Under the pieces are notes generated by a model. It saw nothing but the letters and a program-made list of their open reading frames with translations, was not told the DNA's origin and made no database searches. DNA of 64,000 nt from Lentzea tibetensis. Lineage in GTDB: Bacteria; Actinomycetota; Actinomycetes; Mycobacteriales; Pseudonocardiaceae. The first letter of the stretch is position 1, and each line of letters starts with the position of its first letter. The translations under genes were made by a program, and so were the position numbers. Positions 42,078 through 52,903 of the stretch are shown here, in pieces. The stretch spans positions 86,682 through 150,681 of the forward strand of contig NZ_VOBR01000011.1 in NCBI RefSeq assembly GCF_007845675.1, written 5' to 3'.

Positions 42078-42377
42078 AACGTCAACGGTAGACCCGGTTC
42101 CACTCTGTCTACTGTGGACTGAACAGGTGCGTCCTTTCGGCACGGACAGCTGTGGAGCGCAGCCTTTTCGCGGACGGTCGGGCCGACCCGCAAGAAGCGC
42201 GTCGCGGTGCCGGGCGGCCAGCGAAACTTGCGGACCGGCACCCGGTGGAAATTCACTGGCCCGAGTGGTGGAGTTCACGCTGCGCCCTCGCCGGGGAATA
42301 AGCTGTGCCACGGGCCTTGCAGAACGCTTGAATCACCAGGTCCGGAGCAGTTGACTTGTCTTGGGGGAGACATCGGG
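42078..42377. other. Divergent intergenic region between lysA and an AfsR-type gene
   Basis: 300 bp without a supported gene. TTCACG (42274-42279) and AATAAG (42297-42302) at 17-bp spacing could serve as a weak promoter toward the AfsR-type gene. TCTACTGTGGACT (42108-42120) resembles the GTCCACNGTGGAC word seen elsewhere. No strong palindrome or SARP-like tandem repeat was found here by eye. Confidence 0.4.
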
Positions 42378-45158
42378 ATGATCGTGGAGTTCCGGGTGCT
42401 CGGTCCGGTCGATGCCAGCATCGACGGGCGGACCGTCGCGCTGGGGCCGGCCCGCCAGCGGTGCGTGCTGGCGGCGCTGCTCGTCGACGTCAACCGCGTC
42501 GTGCTGGTCGACCAGCTGATCGACCGGGTGTGGGGCGAGAACCGGCCGTACCGGGTGCGCGGCACGTTGCACAGCTACCTGTCCCGGCTGCGCAAGGTGC
42601 TCGGCGACGACCCGCGGATCACCCAGCAGTCGGGTGGTTACCTGCTCGCCGCCGACGAGTCCACGGTGGACCTGCACCGGTTCCGCAGGCTCGTCGGCGA
42701 CGCGCGCACCGCGGCCGACGAACGCGCGCTGGTGCTGTTCGAGCAGGCGCTGGAACTCTGGCGCGGTGAGGCGTTCGCCGGTCTCGACGTGCCGTGGCTC
42801 GCGCGGGTGCGGGCCGAGCTGGAACGCGAGCGCACCGCGGCGGTGCTCGACCACATCGAGGTCGCGCTGCGACTGGGGCTGCACGCGACGGTGCTGCCGA
42901 AGCTGTCCACTGTGGCCGGTGAGAACCCGCTCGACGAACGGCTCGCCGGGCAGCTGATGCTCGCGCTGTACCGCAGCGGGCGGCAGGCCGAGGCGCAGGC
43001 GCACTACCAGGTCACCCGCACCCGGCTCGCCGAGGAGCTCGGCACGGACCCGAGCGCGGCGCTGCGCCAGCTGCACCACCAGATCCTCACCGCCGACCCC
43101 GCGCTGTCCCCGCCCACCGGCAAGGCGGCGCCGGTCGGCCGGTCGGCCGTACCGCGCCAGCTGCCGCCCCCGCCCGGTTCGTTCATCGGCCGCGAGGACG
43201 AACTGGACCAGCTGACCGCGGCGCTCGACGTGCGGGCGGGCTCGACCGTGGTGATCTCCGCGGTGCGCGGCGCGGGCGGCATCGGCAAGACGTGGCTCGT
43301 GCTGCAGTGGGCCTACCAGAACCTCGCCCGCTTCCCGGACGGTCAGCTGCACGTGAACCTGCGCGGCTTCGACCCGACCGGGCAGCCCGCGAAGCCGGAG
43401 ACCGCCCTGCGCGGGTTCCTCGACGCGCTGGGCGTCGAGTCGGCCGCGATCCCGCTCGACCCGGACGCGCAGGGGGCGCTCTACCGCAGCCTCGTCGCCG
43501 ACCGGCGGATGCTGATCGTGCTGGACAACGCGCGTGACACCAACCAGGTGACGCCGCTGCTGCCCGGCAGCCCCACCTGCACCGTCCTGATCACCAGCCG
43601 CAACGCGCTGGCCGGACTCGTCACCACGCAGGGCGCGCGTCCCGTCGCGCTGGACGTGCTCGCCCACGACGACGCGGTGGCGTTGCTGGTCAAGCACCTC
43701 GGTACCGCACGGGTCGCGGCCGATCCGGCCGCCACCGACGAGCTGATCCGCCGCTGCGCCGGCCTGCCGCTGGCGCTCGGCATCGTCGCCGGACGGGCCG
43801 CGACGCACCCGGACCTCACCCTCGCCGCACTGGCCGAGGAGCTGTGCGACCACGCGGGCAGGCTGGACGCGCTGGACACCGGTGAGGCGATGCTCAACCT
43901 GCGCGCGGTCTTCTCCTGGTCCTACGACGCGCTCACCCCGGACGCCGCCGCGCTCTTCGGGCTGCTGGGCCTGGCGCCGGGCCCGGACTTCAGCGTCGCC
44001 GCCGCCGCGTCGCTGACCTCGTTGCCGGTCTCGCGGACGGCGGCGCTCATGCGGGAGCTGGAGTCCGCGCACCTCGTGCAGCAGCCGACACCGGGCCGGT
44101 TCCGCACGCACGACCTGATGCGGCTCTACGCCACCGAACAGGCCCGGCTCAGCCACACCGAGGAGGGGCTGACCGCGGCGCTGCGCAGGCTCGTCGACCA
44201 CTACGTGCACACCGGGCACGCCGCCGACAAGCTGCTCAACCCGCACCGCCCGCCCGTCGAGGTCGGCGAACCGGTCGACGGCTCTCAGGTGCAGGTGATG
44301 GCGGACCAGGTCGCGGCGCAGAACTGGTTCACCGCCGAACACCCCAACCTGCTCGCCGCTCAGCAGCTCGTCGCCGACCGGGCCTGGCACACCTGTGCCT
44401 GGCAGTTGGCGTGGGTCACGCACACCTACCACTGGCGGCGCGGTCAGCTGCACGACAACCTCGCGGTGTGGCGGATCGCGCTGGCCGCCTGCGAGCAGAT
44501 GGGCGACGTGGAGAGCCAGACCTGGGCCCACCGCCTGCTCGGTTACGCGTGCGTCCGGGTGGGACTGCGCGAGGACGCCATGACGCACCTCAAGCAGGCA
44601 CTCGCACTGGCGGAACGGACGGATGACATCCGCGGCCAGGCCGACGCCCGCCGAGGGCTGGCGTGGGCATTGGAGCAGCAGGGCGAAGACAGGCTGGCTC
44701 TCGAGCACGCCAAACCCGCGCTGGAGCTGTACGAGAAGGTGGGACAGCCCGCGTGGGTGGCGTGGACGCTCAACCAGATGGGCTGGTACGAGGCGAAGCT
44801 GGGGGAGTACGAGAACGCCCGCGCCCACTGCGAGGCCGCGCTGGACCTGTACCGCGTGCACACCGACCACCAGGGCGAGGCGAACACGCTGGACAGCCTC
44901 GGCTACATCGCGCACCGCACCGGTGAGCTCGGCCGGGCGCTCGACTACTACCAGCAGGCGCTCGCGCTCTTCCGGGACCTCGGCCACACCTACCTCGAAG
45001 CCGACACCCTCGACCACCTGGCGCTGACCCAGGTCGAGCTCGGCAGGCTCGAGGCGGCGCGGAGGACCTGGCAGCGGGCACTGGAGCTGTACGAGGCCCA
45101 GCACCGCACGACGGCCGCTGAGCGAGTGCGGTCCCACCTCGCTGATACTTCCCCCTGA
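42378..45158 (+). CDS. AfsR/SARP-family transcriptional regulator with NB-ARC and TPR
   Basis: The 926-residue protein has the complete AfsR layout. A winged-helix DNA-binding domain (FRVLGPVDASIDGRTVALGP; LLVDVNRVVLVDQLIDRVWG) and BTAD domain occupy about residues 1-245; an NB-ARC ATPase follows with FIGREDEL, Walker A GAGGIGKTW (about 297), RMLIVLDNARD (Walker B), TSRNALAGLV and SWSYDALTPDAAALFGLLGL, and then C-terminal TPRs (for example WTLNQMGWYEAKLGEYENA, YIAHRTGELGRALDYYQQAL). ATG follows GGGGGAG. It is a global or pathway activator of secondary metabolism. It is next to a second AfsR-type gene and the cysteine-rich peptide operon. Confidence 0.9.
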   Translation: MIVEFRVLGPVDASIDGRTVALGPARQRCVLAALLVDVNRVVLVDQLIDRVWGENRPYRVRGTLHSYLSRLRKVLGDDPRITQQSGGYLLAADESTVDLHRFRRLVGDARTAADERALVLFEQALELWRGEAFAGLDVPWLARVRAELERERTAAVLDHIEVALRLGLHATVLPKLSTVAGENPLDERLAGQLMLALYRSGRQAEAQAHYQVTRTRLAEELGTDPSAALRQLHHQILTADPALSPPTGKAAPVGRSAVPRQLPPPPGSFIGREDELDQLTAALDVRAGSTVVISAVRGAGGIGKTWLVLQWAYQNLARFPDGQLHVNLRGFDPTGQPAKPETALRGFLDALGVESAAIPLDPDAQGALYRSLVADRRMLIVLDNARDTNQVTPLLPGSPTCTVLITSRNALAGLVTTQGARPVALDVLAHDDAVALLVKHLGTARVAADPAATDELIRRCAGLPLALGIVAGRAATHPDLTLAALAEELCDHAGRLDALDTGEAMLNLRAVFSWSYDALTPDAAALFGLLGLAPGPDFSVAAAASLTSLPVSRTAALMRELESAHLVQQPTPGRFRTHDLMRLYATEQARLSHTEEGLTAALRRLVDHYVHTGHAADKLLNPHRPPVEVGEPVDGSQVQVMADQVAAQNWFTAEHPNLLAAQQLVADRAWHTCAWQLAWVTHTYHWRRGQLHDNLAVWRIALAACEQMGDVESQTWAHRLLGYACVRVGLREDAMTHLKQALALAERTDDIRGQADARRGLAWALEQQGEDRLALEHAKPALELYEKVGQPAWVAWTLNQMGWYEAKLGEYENARAHCEAALDLYRVHTDHQGEANTLDSLGYIAHRTGELGRALDYYQQALALFRDLGHTYLEADTLDHLALTQVELGRLEAARRTWQRALELYEAQHRTTAAERVRSHLADTSP

Positions 45159-45251
45159 CCTGCGGATTCAAGAATCCTGCAAGGTAATGCCATTCCCCGT
45201 GGGCAAGGTGTGCGCGTCGGCCTGACTGGGGGGAAGGCGGCTGTTGTGGGT

Positions 45252-47435
45252 ATGGATGACGCATGCGCTCGTCCGGATGCGATCCGGTTCCGGGTACTGG
45301 GTCCGGTGGAGGTGTTCCGGCACGGCGTGCCGGTGCCGGTGACGGCGGACAAGCACCGCGCGCTGCTGGCCGGGCTGCTGTTGCGCGCCAACAGGTTGGT
45401 GACCGTGACGCAGCTGGCCGGCTGGCTGTGGGGTGATGAGCCGCCCGCGAACGCGCGCGGCACGATCCAGAACTACGTGGCCCGGCTGCGCCGTTCGCTC
45501 GGCGACCGCGGCGAGCTGATCCGCACCGAGGCCTGCGGTTACCTGATCCGGCTGCGGCCGGACCAGCTCGACCTCACCTCGTTCGACGCGCTCGTCGGCG
45601 CCGCCGACGCCGAGGGCGATCCGGCCGCCGAGGCGGCGCTGCTGGAGCAGGCGCTCGGCCTGTGGCGCGGCGTACCGCTGAGCAACATCTGCGCGGACGG
45701 CCTGACGGGCATCGAGGTGTCCGAGCTCGTCGAACGGATGTTGCTCGTGCGGGAGCGCTACTTCGACGCGCGGCTGCGGCTCGGCACGCACGAGGCGCTG
45801 ATCCCGGAGCTGCGCGCGATGACCGAGGCGCACCCGTTGCGGGAACGGTTCCGCGCGCAGCTGATCGAAGCCCTCTACCGGTCGGGCAGGCGGGCCGACG
45901 CGCTCGACGCGCACCGCTCGGTGGTCCGGCTGCTCGCCGACGAGCTGGGCATCGAGCCGTCCGCCGAACTGCGCGCGCTGCACGGCGTGATGATCACCGG
46001 AGCGCAGCCTCCGGTCCGCGTGCCGCGCCCGCGTCGCGCCGAGATCTCGGCCGCACCGGCCCAGCTGCCGTCGGACGTCCGGGGCTTCACCGGTCGCACC
46101 GCCGAGATCGCCCGGCTCGACGCGCTGCTCGACGAGGGGGCCACCACCGTCGCGATCGCGGGCACGGCGGGCGTCGGCAAGACAGCGCTCGCGATCAGGT
46201 GGGGCCGCCGGGTCGCCGACCGGTTCCCCGACGGGCAGCTGTGGGTGAACCTGCGCGGCTACGACCTGGAGCAGCCGCTCGACCCGAGCCGCGTGCTGGT
46301 CAGGTTCCTGCACGCGCTGGGCGTGCCGGGCGAGGACGTGCCCGCGGGGGTGGTGGAGCAGGAGGCGCTCTACCGCGCGCGGCTCGCCGGGAAGCGGATG
46401 CTGATCGTGCTCGACAACGCGAGCTCGCCGTCGCAGGTCCGCCCGCTGCTGCCCGGTTCGCCCGGCTGCACGGTGCTCGTGACGAGCCGCGACGAGTTCA
46501 GCTGCCTGGTCGAGCGGGACGGCGCCGTGCGCCTGCGGCTCGACGTGCTCGACCACGCCGAGGCCACCGAGCTGCTGAGCACCCTGCTCGGTGCCGGGCC
46601 CGCCGACATGATCGCGCTGCACGAGCTGGCTCGCCTGTGCGACCGGCTGCCGCTGGCACTGCGGATCGCGGGCGACCGCATCGCCTCGTCGCCGGGCTAC
46701 TCGCTGTCCGAGATGGTGGGCGACCTCGCGGCCGACGCGCCGATGGACGCCTTCGCCGCGGGCGACGACCCGCGCACCGCACTGCGGGTCGTGTTCTCCT
46801 GGTCCTACCGCGCGCTGCCCGCGGACGCGGCGCTGCTGTTCCGCAGGCTCGGTGCGGTGCCCGGCGCCGGCTTCGAGGCGACCATGTTCGACGCGTTCGT
46901 CGCCGCGGCACTGCTGGACAGCACGCCCGTGCGCGCCCAGGAGCTGCTCGACGCGCTCGCCGCGGCGCACCTCGTGGAGCGGCGGTCCGGTGCCCGGTTC
47001 ACGATGCACGACCTGTTGCAGGCGTACGCGATCGAGCAGGTCGGGATCGAGGACAGTCCGGCCGACACGAAGGCGGCGGCCGCGCGACTCGCCGCGCACT
47101 ACCGGGCCCTGGCTCAGGAAGCCGTGTTCAACGGCCGGAACAGCGCGACCAGGTCGTCCAGCCGCACCACCGCGAGGCCCGCGATCGCCGCGCACGCCGC
47201 GGTCACCGCGATGCCGCCGATCTCGGTCGGCACCGCGGGCCCGGTGATGAGCCCGAGCGCGGCGGCGCAGAGCAACACGGCGTTGCGGATCACGTGGGGC
47301 CAGCCGAGCGGCGTCTCGGACGCGCCGAAGCACCGGCACGGCGCCGTCGTGCCCCGGCGCAGCCCGAGCACGATGCCCGCGACGAACGCGGCCAGCAGCA
47401 ACCCGGCGAGCGCGAAACCCAGCGATCCCGTGTGA
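45252..47435 (+). CDS. AfsR/SARP-type regulator lacking TPRs, with a chimeric C-terminus
   Basis: The 727-residue frame begins with a SARP winged helix (IRFRVLGPVEVFRHGVPVPV; LLRANRLVTVTQLAGWLWGD) and BTAD domain, then an NB-ARC module with Walker A GTAGVGKTA (about 303), RMLIVLDNASSPSQV and SWSYRALPADAALLFRRLGA, and the helical end HDLLQAYAIEQVG. Family likeness stops near residue 625 in AARLAAHYRALAQEA. The remaining 100 codons are simply the antisense of the convergent mauE-like gene and have no TPR character. So the regulator has lost its TPR domain at the border with the peptide operon. ATG 45252 chosen; GTG 45246 is an alternative. Confidence 0.8.
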   Translation: MDDACARPDAIRFRVLGPVEVFRHGVPVPVTADKHRALLAGLLLRANRLVTVTQLAGWLWGDEPPANARGTIQNYVARLRRSLGDRGELIRTEACGYLIRLRPDQLDLTSFDALVGAADAEGDPAAEAALLEQALGLWRGVPLSNICADGLTGIEVSELVERMLLVRERYFDARLRLGTHEALIPELRAMTEAHPLRERFRAQLIEALYRSGRRADALDAHRSVVRLLADELGIEPSAELRALHGVMITGAQPPVRVPRPRRAEISAAPAQLPSDVRGFTGRTAEIARLDALLDEGATTVAIAGTAGVGKTALAIRWGRRVADRFPDGQLWVNLRGYDLEQPLDPSRVLVRFLHALGVPGEDVPAGVVEQEALYRARLAGKRMLIVLDNASSPSQVRPLLPGSPGCTVLVTSRDEFSCLVERDGAVRLRLDVLDHAEATELLSTLLGAGPADMIALHELARLCDRLPLALRIAGDRIASSPGYSLSEMVGDLAADAPMDAFAAGDDPRTALRVVFSWSYRALPADAALLFRRLGAVPGAGFEATMFDAFVAAALLDSTPVRAQELLDALAAAHLVERRSGARFTMHDLLQAYAIEQVGIEDSPADTKAAAARLAAHYRALAQEAVFNGRNSATRSSSRTTARPAIAAHAAVTAMPPISVGTAGPVMSPSAAAQSNTALRITWGQPSGVSDAPKHRHGAVVPRRSPSTMPATNAASSNPASAKPSDPV

Positions 47436-47626
47436 GGCAACGCGAGCAGCACGACCGCGGCCGCTTCGGCGGCCGTGGTCAGTGCCGCCGCGGGCCGGAT
47501 CGCCTTGCCCGGCACCAGTCCGGTCAGCGAGCGCTCGAACTCCCGGTAGGCGCGCATCTTGCTGACGAGCGCGACCAGGAACACGCCGAGCAGCAGCAGC
47601 CGGCAGGCAAGCGCCAGGTACACCAT
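47114..47626 (-). CDS. MauE/DoxX-like redox-associated membrane protein
   Basis: The 170-residue protein has four transmembrane helices and the MauE-type features: LLLGVFLVALVSKMRAYREF at the start (cf. F-(S)-K-R-F-xxF), PAAALTTAAEAAAVVLLAL, and the cysteine motif APCRCFGASETPLGWPHVIR (Cys97, Cys99), equivalent to C-G/x-C-F-G of MauE. MauE with MauD forms disulfides in the methylamine dehydrogenase light chain. Here it closes an operon with a MauD/TlpA-like protein, an exporter and two 8-Cys peptides, so it probably oxidises or helps fold those peptides. ATG follows GAGGGAG. A long hairpin separates it from the peptide gene. Confidence 0.8.
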   Translation of the reverse strand: MVYLALACRLLLLGVFLVALVSKMRAYREFERSLTGLVPGKAIRPAAALTTAAEAAAVVLLALPHTGSLGFALAGLLLAAFVAGIVLGLRRGTTAPCRCFGASETPLGWPHVIRNAVLLCAAALGLITGPAVPTEIGGIAVTAACAAIAGLAVVRLDDLVALFRPLNTAS

Positions 47627-47652
47627 CGTCACTCCCTCGCGGTCGACGGGGT

Positions 47653-47713
47653 GTGCGGCGGGCGGAAAGCGTTGGCCCCCAGTGTTCGGACGAAAGTTCG
47701 CCGCCCGCCGCAC
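47653..47713 (-). promoter_or_regulatory. 13-bp stem hairpin between peptide and mauE-like genes
   Basis: GTGCGGCGGGCGG (47653-47665) pairs perfectly with CCGCCCGCCGCAC (47701-47713), enclosing a 35-nt loop, in the 100-bp gap just after the stop of the first peptide gene. With no U-tract it may be a leaky terminator or an mRNA-stabilising structure that makes the peptide genes more abundant than the gene behind it. Confidence 0.6.
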
Positions 47714-47726
47714 CCGTCTCAGCCGA

Positions 47727-47957
47727 CTACTGGCACTTGTTGCAGTTGATCCGCTCGTCGTAGCAGCCCGTCTGCCGGCCGGTGTAGTCGTCGTAGCAGC
47801 AGTACCGCTCCACCATCCCCAGCCGCGGGAAACCGCTGCCGCAGTGGTATCCGCAGCCGCCGTCCACCCAGATGCAGTAGTAGCGGTCCGCGTGCGCCGT
47901 TTCCTTCGGCGCGAGCACCGCGAGGAGCCGGTCGGCCGCTTCGCTGATCAGTCGCAT
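47727..47957 (-). CDS. Eight-cysteine peptide A (candidate precursor or exported peptide)
   Basis: The 76-residue product has a helical, charged N-terminal part (MRLISEAADRLLAVLAPKE) and then a cysteine-rich part with Cys at 28, 35, 39, 53, 54, 65, 72 and 75. It shares with its neighbour peptide B the block ETAHADRY followed by x-C, and CC-x-DDYTG-x4-C with identical spacing. There is no Sec signal. Aromatic residues are common (YYCIW, ERYCCYDDY). The CC-Y-x3-GR-x2-C segment is reminiscent of a part of methylamine dehydrogenase light chain, but this is a by-eye comparison. Located between exporter/thioredoxin genes and mauE, it is a candidate substrate for both. Start ATG. Confidence 0.75.
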   Translation of the reverse strand: MRLISEAADRLLAVLAPKETAHADRYYCIWVDGGCGYHCGSGFPRLGMVERYCCYDDYTGRQTGCYDERINCNKCQ

Positions 47958-47979
47958 GTGGATCGTTGTCCGTCCTCGG

Positions 47980-48186
47980 TCAGCAGTAGACGCGTTCGCA
48001 CGGGTCCGTGCAGTGGGAGATCTCGCCGGTGTAGTCGTCGACGCAGCAGTACTGGCGGCAGAGGTAACAGCCCGACCGGTACCAGACTCCGGTGTAGTAG
48101 CAGCGGTAGCGGTCGGCGTGCGCCGTCTCGCTGGGGACGAGCTTGGCGAGCAGCTTGTCGCCGATGGCGGCCATGAACTTCGTCAT
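47980..48186 (-). CDS. Eight-cysteine peptide B (paralogue of peptide A)
   Basis: The 68-residue product starts MTKFMAAIGDKLLAKLVPSE, then ETAHADRYRC, and carries Cys at 29, 40, 43, 47, 48, 59, 63 and 68. The N-terminal half and the CCVDDYTG box match peptide A, while the spacers and C-terminal parts differ, as in multi-peptide RiPP families with a conserved leader and variable core. ATG overlaps the ABC-exporter stop by four bases, so its production is coupled to the exporter. It is followed after 22 bp by peptide A. No signal peptide is present, so export by the ABC protein is the natural inference. Confidence 0.75.
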   Translation of the reverse strand: MTKFMAAIGDKLLAKLVPSETAHADRYRCYYTGVWYRSGCYLCRQYCCVDDYTGEISHCTDPCERVYC

Positions 48187-50057
48187 GTGGTGCGTCCTCT
48201 CGTGATCAACTCTTCCGTCCTCCGGAAGCCTGTGGGTGGCGGCTGGTAGCCCTCCGCCTGCATCGAGAACAGCTGCGCGTACAGCCCGTTCCCGATGAGC
48301 AACTGGTCATGGGTGCCTTGTTCGGCAACGGATCCGTCGTCCAGCACGACGACGTGGTCGGCATCGCGGATCGTGCCGAGCCGGTGGGAGATCAGCAGGC
48401 TCGTGCGACCGGCGCGGTGGGTGCGCAGGCTGGCGTGGATCTCGTGCTCGGCCCGCGCGTCGAGGCCCGAGCTCGGCTCGTCCAGCACCAGCAGGTCGCG
48501 CTCGCCGCGCAACAGTGCTCGTGCCAGCGCCAGCCGTTGCCACTGGCCGCCGGAGAGCACGATGCCGGTGTCCGGGTTGTCCTTGTCCGACTCGGAGAAG
48601 AAGATGCGGCTCAGCAGCGTGTCGTAGCCGCGCGGCAGCTTCTCCAGCACGGGTGCGATCCCGGCGAGCCGTGCCGCGTGCTCGACCCGGTCGCGATCGT
48701 CCATCGCGGACAGGTCGCCGAGCCCGATGTTCTCCGCCGCGGTGAAGTCGTAGCGCACGAAGTCCTGGAACAGCACGCCCATCCTGGCGCGCAGGTCGGC
48801 GACCGGGATGTCCCTGATGTCGACGCCGTCCCACGTGATCGAGCCGCGGACCGGGTCGTAGAACCGGCACAGCAGCTTCACCAGCGTGCTCTTGCCCGCG
48901 CCGTTCAGCCCGACCAGCGCGGTGGACCTTCCGTGCTCGACGCGCATGGTCACGCCGCGCAGCACCCACGGGTGGTCGTCGCTGTAGCGGAACCACACGT
49001 CGCGCAGCTCGATCCCCCTGCGCAACGGCGTGATCGCGACCGGCCGTTCGACGGGCGGCAGATCGGGCTCGAGTCCGCGGATCTCCTCCAGGTACCCGAA
49101 CATCAGGAGCGCCTCGTGCGCCTGCGTGACGCTGCTGACGAGCCCGACGACCGCGCCCTGCGCGCCCGCCAGCGCCGCGACGAACGCGGTGACGTCGCCG
49201 ATGGTGATCGCGCCCGAGCTCGCCTGCCACGCCGCCCACACGAGTCCGAGGCCGGAGACCACGGCCCCGATCAGCGACAGCGTCGACTGCGTGTTCAGCA
49301 CCTTGCGGTCGATCTGCCGCTCGCCGCGTTGCACGACGGCCAGCTCGCCGAGCAGCCGCTCCTTCAGGAACGAGCCGAGCCCGAAGAGCCGGATCTCCTT
49401 GGCCGCCTGCGCGTCGGAGATCAGCGAACCGTAGAAGAACTGCTTGCGGCCCGCCGGGCTCAGCCCCGCCCGGATGCGCACCCGTTGCCGGGTCAGGGAG
49501 AGCTGGGCCAGCAGCGTCGGCACCGCGGCCACCAGCACGACGAGGACCATCACCGGGCTGATCAGGTACAGCGTCGCGGTGAGGCTGACCAGCACGACCA
49601 CGTCCCGCGCCAGGCCGAACACGCCGGTGGTGACCGGTGCGAGTGAACGTCCGTTGGCCTGCGCGGCCATGCGGAGCCGGTCGAGGAACGCCGGGTTCTC
49701 GAACCTGGCCAGCCCGTCGAAGCCGTTCACCGCGGTGTACAGCTGGTCCTGCAGCAGCAAGTCCACCCGCCTGCCCAGCTCGGCCTGCAGGAACGCGCTG
49801 AGCTGCGGCACGACACCGGCGAACAGTCCCGCCCCGGCGAGCCCGGCGCCCAGCACCAGCACCGTCGCGCCCGGCTGGCCGGTCGCCAGCGCGTCGACCA
49901 GCAGCTTGGTCAGCCACGCCGCGGTCGCCGGGATCAGTCCGCTGAGGACGGTGAGCACCGCGTAGACGCTCGCCAGCGTTCTCGCCGACCGCCAGCACAG
50001 CAGCCACACGACGAGCGCGTGCCGCCACCGCAGCTCGGGCAGCTGGGTTCCGCTCAC
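48183..50057 (-). CDS. ABC exporter, fused transmembrane and ATPase domains
   Basis: The 624-residue half-transporter has an N-terminal six-helix membrane domain (about 1-330) and a C-terminal ATPase with Walker A GLNGAGKST, signature LSGGQWQRLALARALL, Walker B DLLVLDEPSSGLD and H-loop LLISHRLGTI. It lacks the C39 peptidase domain of classical bacteriocin exporters, so any leader removal needs another protease. GTG start overlaps the thioredoxin-like gene stop (GTGA), and its stop overlaps peptide B's ATG. It should work as a homodimer exporting the cysteine-rich peptides. Confidence 0.9.
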   Translation of the reverse strand: MSGTQLPELRWRHALVVWLLCWRSARTLASVYAVLTVLSGLIPATAAWLTKLLVDALATGQPGATVLVLGAGLAGAGLFAGVVPQLSAFLQAELGRRVDLLLQDQLYTAVNGFDGLARFENPAFLDRLRMAAQANGRSLAPVTTGVFGLARDVVVLVSLTATLYLISPVMVLVVLVAAVPTLLAQLSLTRQRVRIRAGLSPAGRKQFFYGSLISDAQAAKEIRLFGLGSFLKERLLGELAVVQRGERQIDRKVLNTQSTLSLIGAVVSGLGLVWAAWQASSGAITIGDVTAFVAALAGAQGAVVGLVSSVTQAHEALLMFGYLEEIRGLEPDLPPVERPVAITPLRRGIELRDVWFRYSDDHPWVLRGVTMRVEHGRSTALVGLNGAGKSTLVKLLCRFYDPVRGSITWDGVDIRDIPVADLRARMGVLFQDFVRYDFTAAENIGLGDLSAMDDRDRVEHAARLAGIAPVLEKLPRGYDTLLSRIFFSESDKDNPDTGIVLSGGQWQRLALARALLRGERDLLVLDEPSSGLDARAEHEIHASLRTHRAGRTSLLISHRLGTIRDADHVVVLDDGSVAEQGTHDQLLIGNGLYAQLFSMQAEGYQPPPTGFRRTEELITRGRTT

Positions 50058-50584
50058 GCGCGGCTGAGCTGCAGGTCGTGCAGCGAGATCGTCGCGCGCT
50101 CGACCGTGCCCGTCTCGTCGATCGCCAGGAACGTGGGGAAGGACTTGACGCCCAGCAGGTTCTCGAGCCCGCTCATGGCCTCGCCGACGACCACGGCCGT
50201 CGACCCGGACAGCAGCCTGGTCAGCTCGTCGGCCTGCGGCCCGTCACCGCTGACGAACGCGTAGGCAGGCACGTCCATGTTCGCGAACTCGGGCGCGTGC
50301 TCGTGGCACGGCTTGCAGCCCGGCGCGAAGAACCCGACGAGCACGCGCCGCCCGGCCAGGTCGTCCCTGGTGATCGTCCGGCCGTCCACCGTGGACGCGG
50401 TGAACTCGGGAATCTGCTGCCCGTTCAGCTCGTTGTCCCGTTCGAACATCGACTGCGCCGCGCTCGGCACGGCGGCGAGCTTCGCGCCGTACTCCCGCAG
50501 CCTGCGCAGCACCGCGAACAGCAACAGGATGTTCACCAGGCTCAGCACGACGGCCAGCACGACCCCGGCAACCATGATCCCCAC
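50054..50584 (-). CDS. Membrane-anchored TlpA/MauD-like thioredoxin
   Basis: The 176-residue protein has an N-terminal transmembrane anchor (VAGVVLAVVLSLVNILLLF) and an extracytoplasmic thioredoxin-like domain of the AhpC-TSA/TlpA type. The active site is CKPC (Cys90, Cys93) in GFFAPGCKPCHEHAPEF, the cis-Pro loop is KSFPTFLAIDETG, and NGQQIPEFTASTVDGRTI is the usual opening. MauD of methylamine utilisation has the same form. It should make or shuffle disulfides in exported substrates, here most likely the 8-Cys peptides. I take GTG 50584; ATG 50575 is an alternative. First gene of the operon. Confidence 0.85.
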   Translation of the reverse strand: MGIMVAGVVLAVVLSLVNILLLFAVLRRLREYGAKLAAVPSAAQSMFERDNELNGQQIPEFTASTVDGRTITRDDLAGRRVLVGFFAPGCKPCHEHAPEFANMDVPAYAFVSGDGPQADELTRLLSGSTAVVVGEAMSGLENLLGVKSFPTFLAIDETGTVERATISLHDLQLSRA

Positions 50585-50660
50585 GTCTCGCCCCTCTCTC
50601 CGATGACGACGAGAAGTTAGGAACGACCGCCGACGCGGCGCTGTCATCTCGCTACCGCCG

Positions 50661-50676
50661 CGCGACAGCGGTCGCG
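50661..50676. promoter_or_regulatory. 16-bp inverted repeat in the signal-peptidase/thioredoxin divergent region
   Basis: CGCGAC-AGCG-GTCGCG has 6-bp arms and lies between the peptide operon and the S26 peptidase gene, just before TACTGT (50679-50684), a possible -10 for the peptidase gene. It could be an operator that coordinates the two transcription units. Confidence 0.4.
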
Positions 50677-50704
50677 TCTACTGTGGGGCGCACGGAGGTG
50701 AGGG

Positions 50705-51139
50705 ATGGTCGTGGCGGTGGTCGTCGCGGTCGCGTGCGGCGCGGCGCTGTGGTGGTTGCGGCGCACGTGGGTCGCGGTGAGCGTGGACGGGGACAGCATG
50801 GAGCCGACGTACCGGCACGGTGACCGCGTGCTCGTCCGCCGGTGCGGGCCGGCCGGGCTCGCGCTCGGCGCGATCGTCGTCGTGGAGCAGCCGGCGGCCG
50901 GTGGTGACGTTCCCGCGCACCTGGTGCGGTTGAACATCAAGCGGCTCGCGGCGTTGCCCGGTGATCCGGTGCCCGCGAGTGTGCGCCCGGTGGTCGATGT
51001 GGAGGTCGTGCCGGCCGGAGCGCTCGTGGTGTTGGGCGACAACCCGCGCGGTTGCGATTCGAGGTCGTTGGGGTTTTACCGGTCGGACAGGGTGATGGGT
51101 GTGGTCGTGCGGCGGGTCAGCGCAGCCAGCCGCGGCTGA
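50705..51139 (+). CDS. S26-family signal peptidase
   Basis: The 144-residue protein has one N-terminal membrane helix (VVAVVVAVACGAALWWL) and a small type I signal-peptidase domain: the catalytic serine is Ser31 in VDGDSMEPTYRHGDRVLV, the general-base lysine is Lys79 in NIKRLAALPGDPVP, and VVLGDNPRGCDSRSLGFY is the conserved box E. It is shorter than housekeeping LepB, as in the nickel-SOD/TraF-like group of specialised peptidases. It starts with ATG after GAGGTGAGG and is divergent from the 8-Cys peptide operon, so it may cleave the leaders. The end overlaps the convergent response regulator by 23 bp. Confidence 0.85.
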   Translation: MVVAVVVAVACGAALWWLRRTWVAVSVDGDSMEPTYRHGDRVLVRRCGPAGLALGAIVVVEQPAAGGDVPAHLVRLNIKRLAALPGDPVPASVRPVVDVEVVPAGALVVLGDNPRGCDSRSLGFYRSDRVMGVVVRRVSAASRG

Positions 51140-51728
51140 GCGCCACGGTGACCGCCGCCGTGCGGTCGCTGACGTCGAGCTTGCTGAACACGTGCAGCAG
51201 GTGGCTCTTCACGGTCGCCTCGCTGACCCGCAGCTCCACGCTGATCGCCGCGTTGGACAGTCCACGCGCGACGAGCCCGAGCACCTCGACCTCGCGCGCG
51301 CTGAGCGTCGGCCGTTGCACCGCGCTGACCAGGCGGGTGGCCACCGGCGGCGCGAGCACCGTCTGCCCCCGTGCCGCCGCCCGGACGGCCTCGATGAGGT
51401 CGGTGCTCGGCGCGTCCTTCAGCAGGTAGGCGGTCGCACCCGCCTCGATGGCGCGGATGATGTCGCCGTCGGTGTCGAAGGTCGTCAGCACGACGACCCG
51501 GCTGCTGGTCTCCGCGACGACCCGCGCGGTCGCCGCGGCGCCGTCGAGCTCGGGCATCTTGAGGTCCATCAGCACGACGTCCGGGTGCAGCTCGGACGCC
51601 ATCCGCACCGCCTCGGCGCCGGAGCCGCACTCGCCGACCACCTCCAGGTCCGGCTCGGCCTCCAGCAGCGCCCGCAACCCGGCCCGCACCACCGGGTGGT
51701 CGTCGGCGACGATCACGCGCACCGCCAT
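51117..51728 (-). CDS. NarL/LuxR-family response regulator
   Basis: The 203-residue protein has a receiver domain (VIVADDHPVVRAGLRALLEA, phospho-Asp in DVVLMDLKMPELDG, Lys in AYLLKDAPST) and a LuxR helix-turn-helix (LSAREVEVLGLVARGLSNAA, VSEATVKSHLLHVFSKLDV). Its ATG overlaps the stop of the sensor-kinase gene by one base (TGATG), forming a standard two-component pair. Targets are unknown; the divergent or adjacent peptide/exporter and membrane genes are possible. Confidence 0.9.
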   Translation of the reverse strand: MAVRVIVADDHPVVRAGLRALLEAEPDLEVVGECGSGAEAVRMASELHPDVVLMDLKMPELDGAAATARVVAETSSRVVVLTTFDTDGDIIRAIEAGATAYLLKDAPSTDLIEAVRAAARGQTVLAPPVATRLVSAVQRPTLSAREVEVLGLVARGLSNAAISVELRVSEATVKSHLLHVFSKLDVSDRTAAVTVALSRGWLR

Positions 51729-52903
51729 CACCCACCTGCCGGAAGTCGCACGAGGACGGTGACCCCGTTGCCGGGTGAGGTGTGGATGTCCAGCGACCCG
51801 CCGGCGTGGCGGACGCGGGAGCGCAGGCCGTCCAGCCCGAACCCGCCCGCGAGGCGCGCGGAGGGGGCGAAGCCGCGGCCGTCGTCGGTGACGCTGAGCC
51901 GGACGTCGTCGGGGGAGTAGTCCAGCGACACGGACACGGTGGTCGCCTCGGCGTGTTTGCGCACGTTGGCCAGTGCCTCCTGGGTGACGCGGAGCAGCGC
52001 CACCTCGCAGTCCGGTGCGAGCCTGCGGTGCTCGCCGGTCGTCGTCATGGTCGCCGCGACGTCCAGTTCGCGGCCGATCCTGCTGGTGAGGCGTTCCAGT
52101 GCGGCCGGGAGCGAGGCGCCGTCCAGTTCGGCGGGCGTGAGAGCGGCGACCAGCGAGCGGATCTCGCGGAGGTTCTCGCGGGTCGTCTCCTCGGCGAGCA
52201 CGAGGTGCTGCTCGCACCGGGACATGTCGCCGTGCAACGCCTTCCGCGCCGCCTGGAGCAGGAGCAGCACGCTCGTCGAGCCCTGCGCCAGCGTGTCGTG
52301 CAGGTCCTTGGCCAGCCGTTCCCGTTCGGCGAGCACGCCGGCCTCGTGGCTGACCCGCGCGAGTTCCGCGCGGGTGGTGTCCAGCTCGGCGACCAGCCGG
52401 GCGCGTTCGTGGCTCTGCTCGATGATCCTGGTGATCCACAGGCCGAGCAGGATCGACGGGAACAGGCTGATGACGATGAACGACGCCCAGCCGACCGCGT
52501 CCTCGGTGAAATCGCCCTGCACCAGCACGACCGCGCCGACCGACAGCGACGTCACCGCCGTCGCGGCGACCGCGCGGCGGGTCGGGAGCAGCGACCAGAT
52601 CTGGGGGTACAGCGCGAACAACAGCACCGCCATGACGGGCACCAGCGCGTACATCGTGATCGTCAGTGCGATGGCGGCGGCGACGTAGACCTGGCCTTGC
52701 GGCTCGCGGTTCAACGCCCGTGCGCCGAATCGCGCGTACGACGCGCACAGCACGGCGAGCAGTGCGAGCACGATCGCCCGCCTGCCACCGGACACCTGGC
52801 TGTCCGCGACCACCAGCACGACACCGACCAGCACGAACACGCCGAACGCGAGGTGCCAGCCGATGCGGGTGCGGTCCCAGACGTGAACGGACGTCACCGG
52901 CAC
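51728..52903 (-). CDS. NarL-type sensor histidine kinase
   Basis: The 391-residue protein has about five to six N-terminal membrane helices (to about residue 165), a coiled segment (SHERARLVAELDTTRAELAR), the HisKA_3 phospho-acceptor in RLAKDLHDTLAQGSTSVLLL (His near 200), and an ATPase domain with the N-box VTQEALANVRKHAEAT and G-boxes DDGRGFAPS and GGFGLDGLRSRV. It phosphorylates the response regulator whose gene overlaps its stop. The organisation resembles DesK/LiaS-type sensors of envelope stress. GTG start. Confidence 0.9.
   Translation of the reverse strand: MPVTSVHVWDRTRIGWHLAFGVFVLVGVVLVVADSQVSGGRRAIVLALLAVLCASYARFGARALNREPQGQVYVAAAIALTITMYALVPVMAVLLFALYPQIWSLLPTRRAVAATAVTSLSVGAVVLVQGDFTEDAVGWASFIVISLFPSILLGLWITRIIEQSHERARLVAELDTTRAELARVSHEAGVLAERERLAKDLHDTLAQGSTSVLLLLQAARKALHGDMSRCEQHLVLAEETTRENLREIRSLVAALTPAELDGASLPAALERLTSRIGRELDVAATMTTTGEHRRLAPDCEVALLRVTQEALANVRKHAEATTVSVSLDYSPDDVRLSVTDDGRGFAPSARLAGGFGLDGLRSRVRHAGGSLDIHTSPGNGVTVLVRLPAGG

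Follow-up and report, generated by a model that had tools for sequence, protein, structure and literature searches.

What do a membrane thioredoxin and a MauE-like membrane protein do beside an ABC exporter and two small cysteine-rich peptides? The question is raised by a 64,000-nucleotide stretch of the Lentzea tibetensis genome (assembly GCF_007845675.1, contig NZ_VOBR01000011.1, forward-strand positions 86,682 to 150,681), here called the window and numbered from its first letter. The answer proposed is that the locus probably encodes a pathway by which small ribosomal peptides, addressed by their leaders, are secreted and disulfide-bonded. An earlier reading made from the letters alone (the sequence-only reading) had placed five leftward genes and a divergent S26 peptidase here, with two peptides of eight cysteines each; on re-checking, the coordinates, strands, and domains were found correct:

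47114..47626, minus strand: MauE/DoxX-like membrane protein with a CRCFG redox motif (PF07291, E 1.9e-27)
47727..47957, minus strand: peptide A precursor, 76 residues; predicted AHA|DRY cut after residue 23, leaving a 53-residue core with 8 Cys
47980..48186, minus strand: peptide B precursor, 68 residues; predicted AHA|DRY cut after residue 24, leaving a 44-residue core with 8 Cys
48183..50057, minus strand: ABC exporter whose single chain has both the membrane and the ATPase domain, no C39 domain (PF00005, ABC_tran, 3.9e-28; PF00664)
50054..50584, minus strand: TlpA/MauD-like thioredoxin with an N-terminal membrane anchor and a CKPC motif (PF00578, AhpC-TSA, 6.2e-07)
50705..51139, plus strand: S26 signal peptidase I-like peptidase with an SMEP serine motif (PF10502, Peptidase_S26, 1.4e-16; TIGR02227 above cut-off)

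Two of the starts can be read differently: the MauE open reading frame (ORF) may begin at 47713, the family alignment beginning at 47626, and a longer ORF, to 50647, is possible for the TlpA-like gene. Neighboring genes overlap by four bases at TlpA/ABC (GTGA) and at ABC/peptide B (ATGA); peptide B is separated from A by 22 nucleotides, and A from MauE by 100, which hold an inverted repeat. The overlaps and the shared strand bear out the tight coupling claimed in the sequence-only reading, and transcription of the five minus-strand genes as an operon may be supposed from this layout.

In the proposed pathway, the leader would be an address recognized by the ABC exporter, which would move the precursor, still reduced, out of the cell. 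There MauE and the TlpA-like thioredoxin, which is tethered to the membrane, would form or proofread the two to six disulfides of the core, and the S26 peptidase would cut after A-x-A, freeing a disulfide mini-protein of about 22–75 residues. SARP and two-component regulators would turn the cluster on. What is observed is the gene set with its linkage, the build of leaders and cores, the even number of cysteines, and the kept redox and protease motifs; the individual biochemical steps and their sequence, the way electrons flow, the regulation, and the role are inferred from these.

Both peptide ORFs look coding, with third-position guanine-plus-cytosine fractions of 0.93 (A) and 0.96 (B), and the two are paralogues, 56% identical over the aligned part. 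The calculated monoisotopic masses of the cores, both beginning at DRY, are 6182.48 Da for A and 5357.12 Da for B with four disulfides each, and 6190.54 and 5365.18 Da when reduced. Neither matched a Pfam model at E ≤ 1 or any NCBIfam model; for the wider peptide family, Pfam and NCBIfam returned scattered weak matches only.

Recurrence of the gene set

A search for TlpA relatives in 391 genomes of the family found them at E ≤ 1e-15 in at least 22, and their neighborhoods again held ABC, MauE, and S26 genes together with small Cys-rich ORFs; a TlpA profile run against 394 genomes of the class found matches at E ≤ 1e-20 in at least 26. Genome counts throughout are lower bounds (candidates scored per genome: 8 for TlpA, 16 in the family peptide scan, 150 in single-genome scans). 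Two sets of loci were compared: 60 TlpA-anchored loci annotated with local profiles, 20 from the family search and 40 from the class search (2 in the window's own genome), and 80 ABC-anchored loci, the best 80 of 563 confirmed. The sets overlap, some stretches stop at contig edges, and the loci were picked by similarity, so that the counts below measure linkage and not prevalence.

At common thresholds, the 60 TlpA-anchored loci include an ABC exporter at 58, MauE at 58, S26 at 56, and a peptide at 56; the 80 ABC-anchored loci include TlpA at 73, S26 at 72, MauE at 56, and a peptide at 70 (66 by the leader profile alone). All four machinery genes are present at 53 of the 60 and 53 of the 80. 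Genera represented among the ABC-anchored loci include Streptosporangium, Streptomyces, Nonomuraea, Plantactinospora, Virgisporangium, Catellatospora, Actinomadura, Micromonospora, Lentzea, Nocardia, Amycolatopsis, and Pseudonocardia. The sequence-only reading had staked itself on the peptides being more than isolated genes and on the set being conserved; both proved to be so, and its interpretation of the locus as a pathway of export, oxidation, and cleavage is supported by a gene set that is found again, next to a peptide gene, in many genera of actinobacteria.

Approached from the peptides, matches at E ≤ 0.001 occur in at least 70 of the 391 family genomes and at least 14 of 46 genera, by a 129-row profile that includes many of the peptides later found with it. 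Among 40 hand-chosen peptide-anchored loci, 20 of them from two genomes, 21 have all four machinery genes and 19 have none. The window's own 9.36 Mb genome has five peptide matches, each beside its own machinery: a pair in the window, another pair on a second contig, and one on a third. All five had gone into building the profile, and what the scan shows is that nothing else matched among the 150 of 355 candidates scored. The latter two contigs carry two further complete systems (loci L079 and L080), whose three peptides comprise two with 8 Cys and one with 10. Cores at Lentzea loci L147 and L155 are nearly identical to those at L226–L228, in genomes of the window's genus.

Leader and core of the precursors

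A leader profile was built from 15 seeds, the window pair included. The loci yielded 17,125 ORFs in total; among those of up to 300 residues, which the scan and its shuffled controls covered, 142 scored 8 bits or more, and none of the shuffled counterparts did. The first pass gave 132 distinct leader-bearing peptides with at least four Cys, and an enlarged set gave 179 distinct cores. The leader logo represents 129 of the 132, three being left out as not matching the anchoring pattern. Five positions stand out: D-15 (107), R-14 (111), P-7 (122), A-3 (119), and A-1 (128). The leader is 24 residues long in 84 of the 129 precursors, with the amphipathic pattern DR-LL-xx-LVP (hydrophobic moment 0.56, vs. 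0.30 when shuffled). Its end is shaped like a signal-peptidase-I site, after what appears to be a short amphipathic helix and no long hydrophobic stretch; the median best 11-residue Eisenberg mean is 0.31. A double-glycine leader end was not seen, the A-x-A pattern standing in its place.

The cores are 22–75 residues long (median 41, n = 129), rich in Cys (18%), Gly (11%), and Tyr (9%), and poor in Leu (1.7%). Over 3000 sampled pairs, mean identity is 0.46 for leaders vs. 0.24 for cores (0.21 with Cys omitted), the combination of conserved leader and variable core expected of precursors of ribosomally synthesized and post-translationally modified peptides (RiPPs). Ratios of nonsynonymous to synonymous substitution (dN/dS) over 42 close pairs are 0.25 for the leader and 0.32 for the core; both are below 1, which indicates purifying selection on real, constrained proteins.

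An AlphaFold2 model of peptide B, made with 12 relatives, has a leader helix at residues 3–16, a low-confidence stretch at 17–23, and a beta core. The uncertain stretch coincides with the predicted cleavage site, and block confidence (pLDDT) is 82–86 from residue 31 onward. Comparison of this model with known folds gave no convincing match, and it contains no transmembrane helix, its sole helix being that of the leader.

This anatomy bears on a different route, in which the peptide would leave through Sec or be cut inside the cell, the exporter would carry something else, and the linkage would reflect co-regulation. S26 peptidases normally act on Sec substrates, and the leader end does resemble a Sec cleavage site; the leader, however, lacks the long hydrophobic stretch, and the exporter gene overlaps that of peptide B in the window and has a peptide nearby at 70 of 80 loci. 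Such a route is judged improbable.

Even cysteine number

All 132 first-pass peptides have 4, 6, 8, 10, or 12 cysteines after the A-x-A, and in the enlarged set 178 of the 179 distinct cores have an even count. The window cores, with eight Cys each, and three Streptomyces plasmid cores, with six each, conform. The eight cysteines described in the sequence-only reading hold for the window pair, and relatives with 4–12 show that the number is not fixed. Among comparison ORFs of up to 130 residues with at least four Cys, taken from the ABC-anchored loci, 670 have an even number and 432 an odd one. There are 94 different Cys spacings among 129 cores; if all the cysteines pair, a count that moves by two at a time over so much divergence would be expected.

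The parity count omitted 4 of the 142 leader-bearing ORFs, which have fewer than four Cys (L034, L191, one at L035, and one at L154). At L034 and L191 the ORF leaves the frame of a Cys-rich core, as if the peptide gene were broken or had been misread. Four Cys are the full number in a minority of cores (L103, L242, L243, L042, L162, L167, L173, L179).

Exporter, peptidase, and redox proteins

The exporter was described in the sequence-only reading as having no peptidase domain, and a C39 domain was found at E ≤ 0.001 in none of 12 exporters scanned, that of the window included. Together with the A-x-A leader end and the linkage of S26 to both anchor genes, this supports the S26 protein as the probable leader peptidase; its SMxP motif is kept in 56 of 57 copies. 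The redox motifs are similarly well kept: CxCFG in 59 of 60 aligned MauE copies, that of the window included, and CxxC in 62 of 64 TlpA copies, both exceptions being second copies at L116 and L117. At each of these loci there are two adjacent TlpA genes, one without CxxC. No LanB/C, LanM, LanKC, or LanL gene surfaced among the recurrent neighbor clusters, for which no lanthipeptide synthetase model was run.

The presence of MauE and a MauD-like protein, with Trp and Tyr in the cores, could instead suggest the precursor of a peptide-derived redox cofactor, similar to tryptophylquinone and matured by Mau-type proteins. The methylamine dehydrogenase light chain (PF02975) was found in none of 42 genomes, the window's own included, with a model that had no positive control; Trp is absent from 29 of 129 cores; and no MauG-like or dehydrogenase gene is among the recurrent clusters shown, to which no model search for these was directed. 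A cofactor precursor is considered extremely unlikely.

Dispersed peptides and plasmids

In two genomes of one genus, G310 and G267, peptide genes lie among unrelated neighbors. G310 reached the limit of 16 in the family peptide scan and has at least 17 peptide ORFs, in stretches L206–L220, yet a single TlpA (150 candidates scored out of 222) and a single MauE (150 out of 157) were detected in it. No peptide was found in the 18 kb surrounding its hub (L039), nor was S26 found in that stretch. The natural suggestion is that a single hub in G310 may serve many unlinked peptides; the case is weaker in G267, which holds five TlpA copies.

A Streptomyces atratus plasmid carries a self-contained set of SARP, peptide, MauE, TlpA, ABC, and S26 genes adjoining an integrase, with the peptide and TlpA annotated as hypothetical. 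Two circular plasmids of this species, of about 111 and 120 kb (L250, L252), have the gene set next to an integrase, with a peptide read on the first only; the gene table for the second strain's plasmid, which is incomplete, has no gene at the expected peptide position.

Points against the proposed pathway

Several observations weigh against the pathway as set out above. With respect to linkage, S26 in the window is encoded on the opposite strand from the other machinery; the 19 machinery-free peptide loci, all in G310 and G267, have no hub beside them; MauE was not detected at 24 of the 80 ABC-anchored loci; and operons of peptide, TlpA, ABC, and S26 genes without MauE exist. With respect to pairing, one core (L224:4429–4617), which adjoins a complete system, has nine Cys. 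The cores are also related by chaining, so that their even counts cannot be taken as independent of one another: single linkage at 40% core identity gives 39 clusters, the largest with 76 of 132, and a looser threshold, 35% of the non-Cys positions, joins 128 of the 129 cores in one. With respect to role, core net charge is mostly −1 to +4 (−1 for each window core), unlike typical pore formers, which are cationic, and with dN/dS below 1 over the 42 close pairs there is no sign of positive selection or an arms race.

The closest solved relatives of the TlpA-like protein by profile (PDB) include ResA, which is a reductant. Electron flow could therefore run either way, and TlpA may reduce or isomerize rather than oxidize. 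Combined with cores that are nearly one-fifth Cys, a reducing TlpA raises the idea that the peptides are thiol metal-binders of metallothionein or chalkophore type, kept reduced for metal loading by TlpA and MauE. The near-universal even Cys number, over so many spacings, fits pairing better than metal clusters, and no metal regulator or transporter is among the largest recurrent neighbor clusters, where no model search was aimed at them. Metal binding seems very unlikely, and disulfide formation or proofreading in the course of secretion remains the preferred interpretation.

Regulation and possible role

Candidate regulators lie on both sides of the cluster, and one further feature lies within it:

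42207..45158, plus strand: SARP/AfsR-type (BTAD-NB-ARC-TPR) activator, likely regulator (PF03704, 1e-37; scanned as 42366–45158)
45210..47435, plus strand: SARP/AfsR-type (BTAD) activator, likely regulator (PF03704, 3.5e-38; scanned as 45252–47435)
47653..47713: inverted repeat in the gap that separates peptide A from MauE, below the peptide genes, where the mRNA might form a hairpin (26-nucleotide arms, 77% complementary)
51117..51728, minus strand: NarL-type response regulator, possible regulator (PF00072, PF00196)
51728..52903, minus strand: sensor histidine kinase, possible regulator (HisKA_3, HATPase_c)

The nearer BTAD activator has no detected TPR repeats and may be truncated; its ORF overlaps the end of MauE in antisense orientation. 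A SARP gene is present at 36 of the 60 TlpA-anchored and 35 of the 80 ABC-anchored loci, and a response-regulator cluster turns up at 11 of 135. The inverted-repeat region has a predicted fold of −50.5 kcal/mol, with a z-score of only −1.33 over a 106-nucleotide stretch and −2.6 over the 90 nucleotides after peptide A. Among relatives, stable hairpins are found behind many peptide genes, a tally made with no comparison set of other gene ends.

The products are most likely secreted interference or signaling peptides aimed beyond the producer; that no immunity gene surfaced among the recurrent neighbors points to a target other than the producer itself. The same pathway could, less probably, make an intercellular signal for the producer's own use, such as a developmental or quorum peptide that switches on SARP, and not a weapon. 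The frequency of SARP genes would suit this, as would the lack of an immunity gene among the recurrent clusters shown, the near-neutral charge of the cores, and the purifying selection on them. Cores far more divergent than their leaders, with at least 17 different ones in a single genome, would nevertheless be odd for a private signal, and no dedicated receptor was identified. A private signal is considered somewhat unlikely.

Relation to known systems

The decRiPPter survey (Kloosterman et al., 2020; PMC7794033) predicted three candidate Streptomyces families with mauE, one also with mauD; each precursor has at least eight Cys, other mau orthologues are absent, and the association was interpreted, in the parts of the article drawn on here, as RiPP modification. 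The window likewise has MauE beside precursors with this many cysteines, within a family of wider range. In a literature search with most subscription papers outside its reach, this was the only report found to join MauE with RiPPs, and no experimentally tested member was found. The excerpted parts of the article are confined to three Streptomyces families and contain no account of the leader, the S26 site, the even-Cys rule, the link to SARP genes, precursors encoded away from the machinery, or occurrence outside Streptomyces.

In methylamine dehydrogenase maturation, MauD and MauE have been proposed to act on the disulfides of a Cys-rich substrate (van der Palen, 1997, as related in part of PMC7794033). 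The window resembles that system, as there described, in having a MauE homologue and a MauD-like protein for a Cys-rich substrate; unlike it, the substrates are mini-proteins beside an ABC exporter, and the light chain went undetected in the 42 genomes by the uncontrolled model described above. Among known exported disulfide peptides, glycocins such as sublancin have linked thiol oxidoreductases, peptidase-containing exporters with a C39 domain, and a double-glycine leader. The window system shares disulfide peptide export with a linked thiol oxidoreductase, and differs in its AxA leader, its S26 peptidase, and the lack of C39. Another partial parallel is TMcin, described in excerpts of a preprint as a peptide with a dedicated thiol oxidoreductase, a separate leader protease, and an ABC exporter, whose disulfide is needed for activity (Nur et al., 2026; PMC13252029). 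It shares with the window system, as far as these excerpts go, the dedicated thiol enzyme, separate protease, and exporter; it differs in its transmembrane helix, single disulfide, DsbA-like enzyme, and S2P-clan protease (PMC13252029).

Parts of the idea, put forward in the sequence-only reading as a candidate undescribed system, have been described before: decRiPPter flagged the MauE link, and other systems are known in which exported peptides have thiol enzymes of their own. What this analysis adds is the leader motif, the even-Cys rule, the linkage to S26 and SARP, the dispersed peptides, and the breadth of distribution.

Implications

A broader proposal may be made tentatively, as a fair prospect falling short of probable: that this is a general actinobacterial platform for a new class of ribosomal product, in which one leader would direct an open-ended range of mini-proteins, hypervariable in sequence and with every cysteine paired in a disulfide, to a hub for export, oxidation, and trimming, with some genomes having one hub and at least 17 unlinked peptides. 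The products would be a bacterial counterpart of venom or defensin families, acting on non-kin.

If the pathway operates as proposed, a large natural library of disulfide mini-proteins, which present family models match weakly, could be mined with a single short profile of the leader. Leader and hub together might also provide a bacterial route to multi-disulfide peptides. MauE and TlpA proteins would gain a proposed substrate outside methylamine dehydrogenase, and the question is raised of whether an S26 peptidase can process the non-Sec leader of an ABC-exported peptide.

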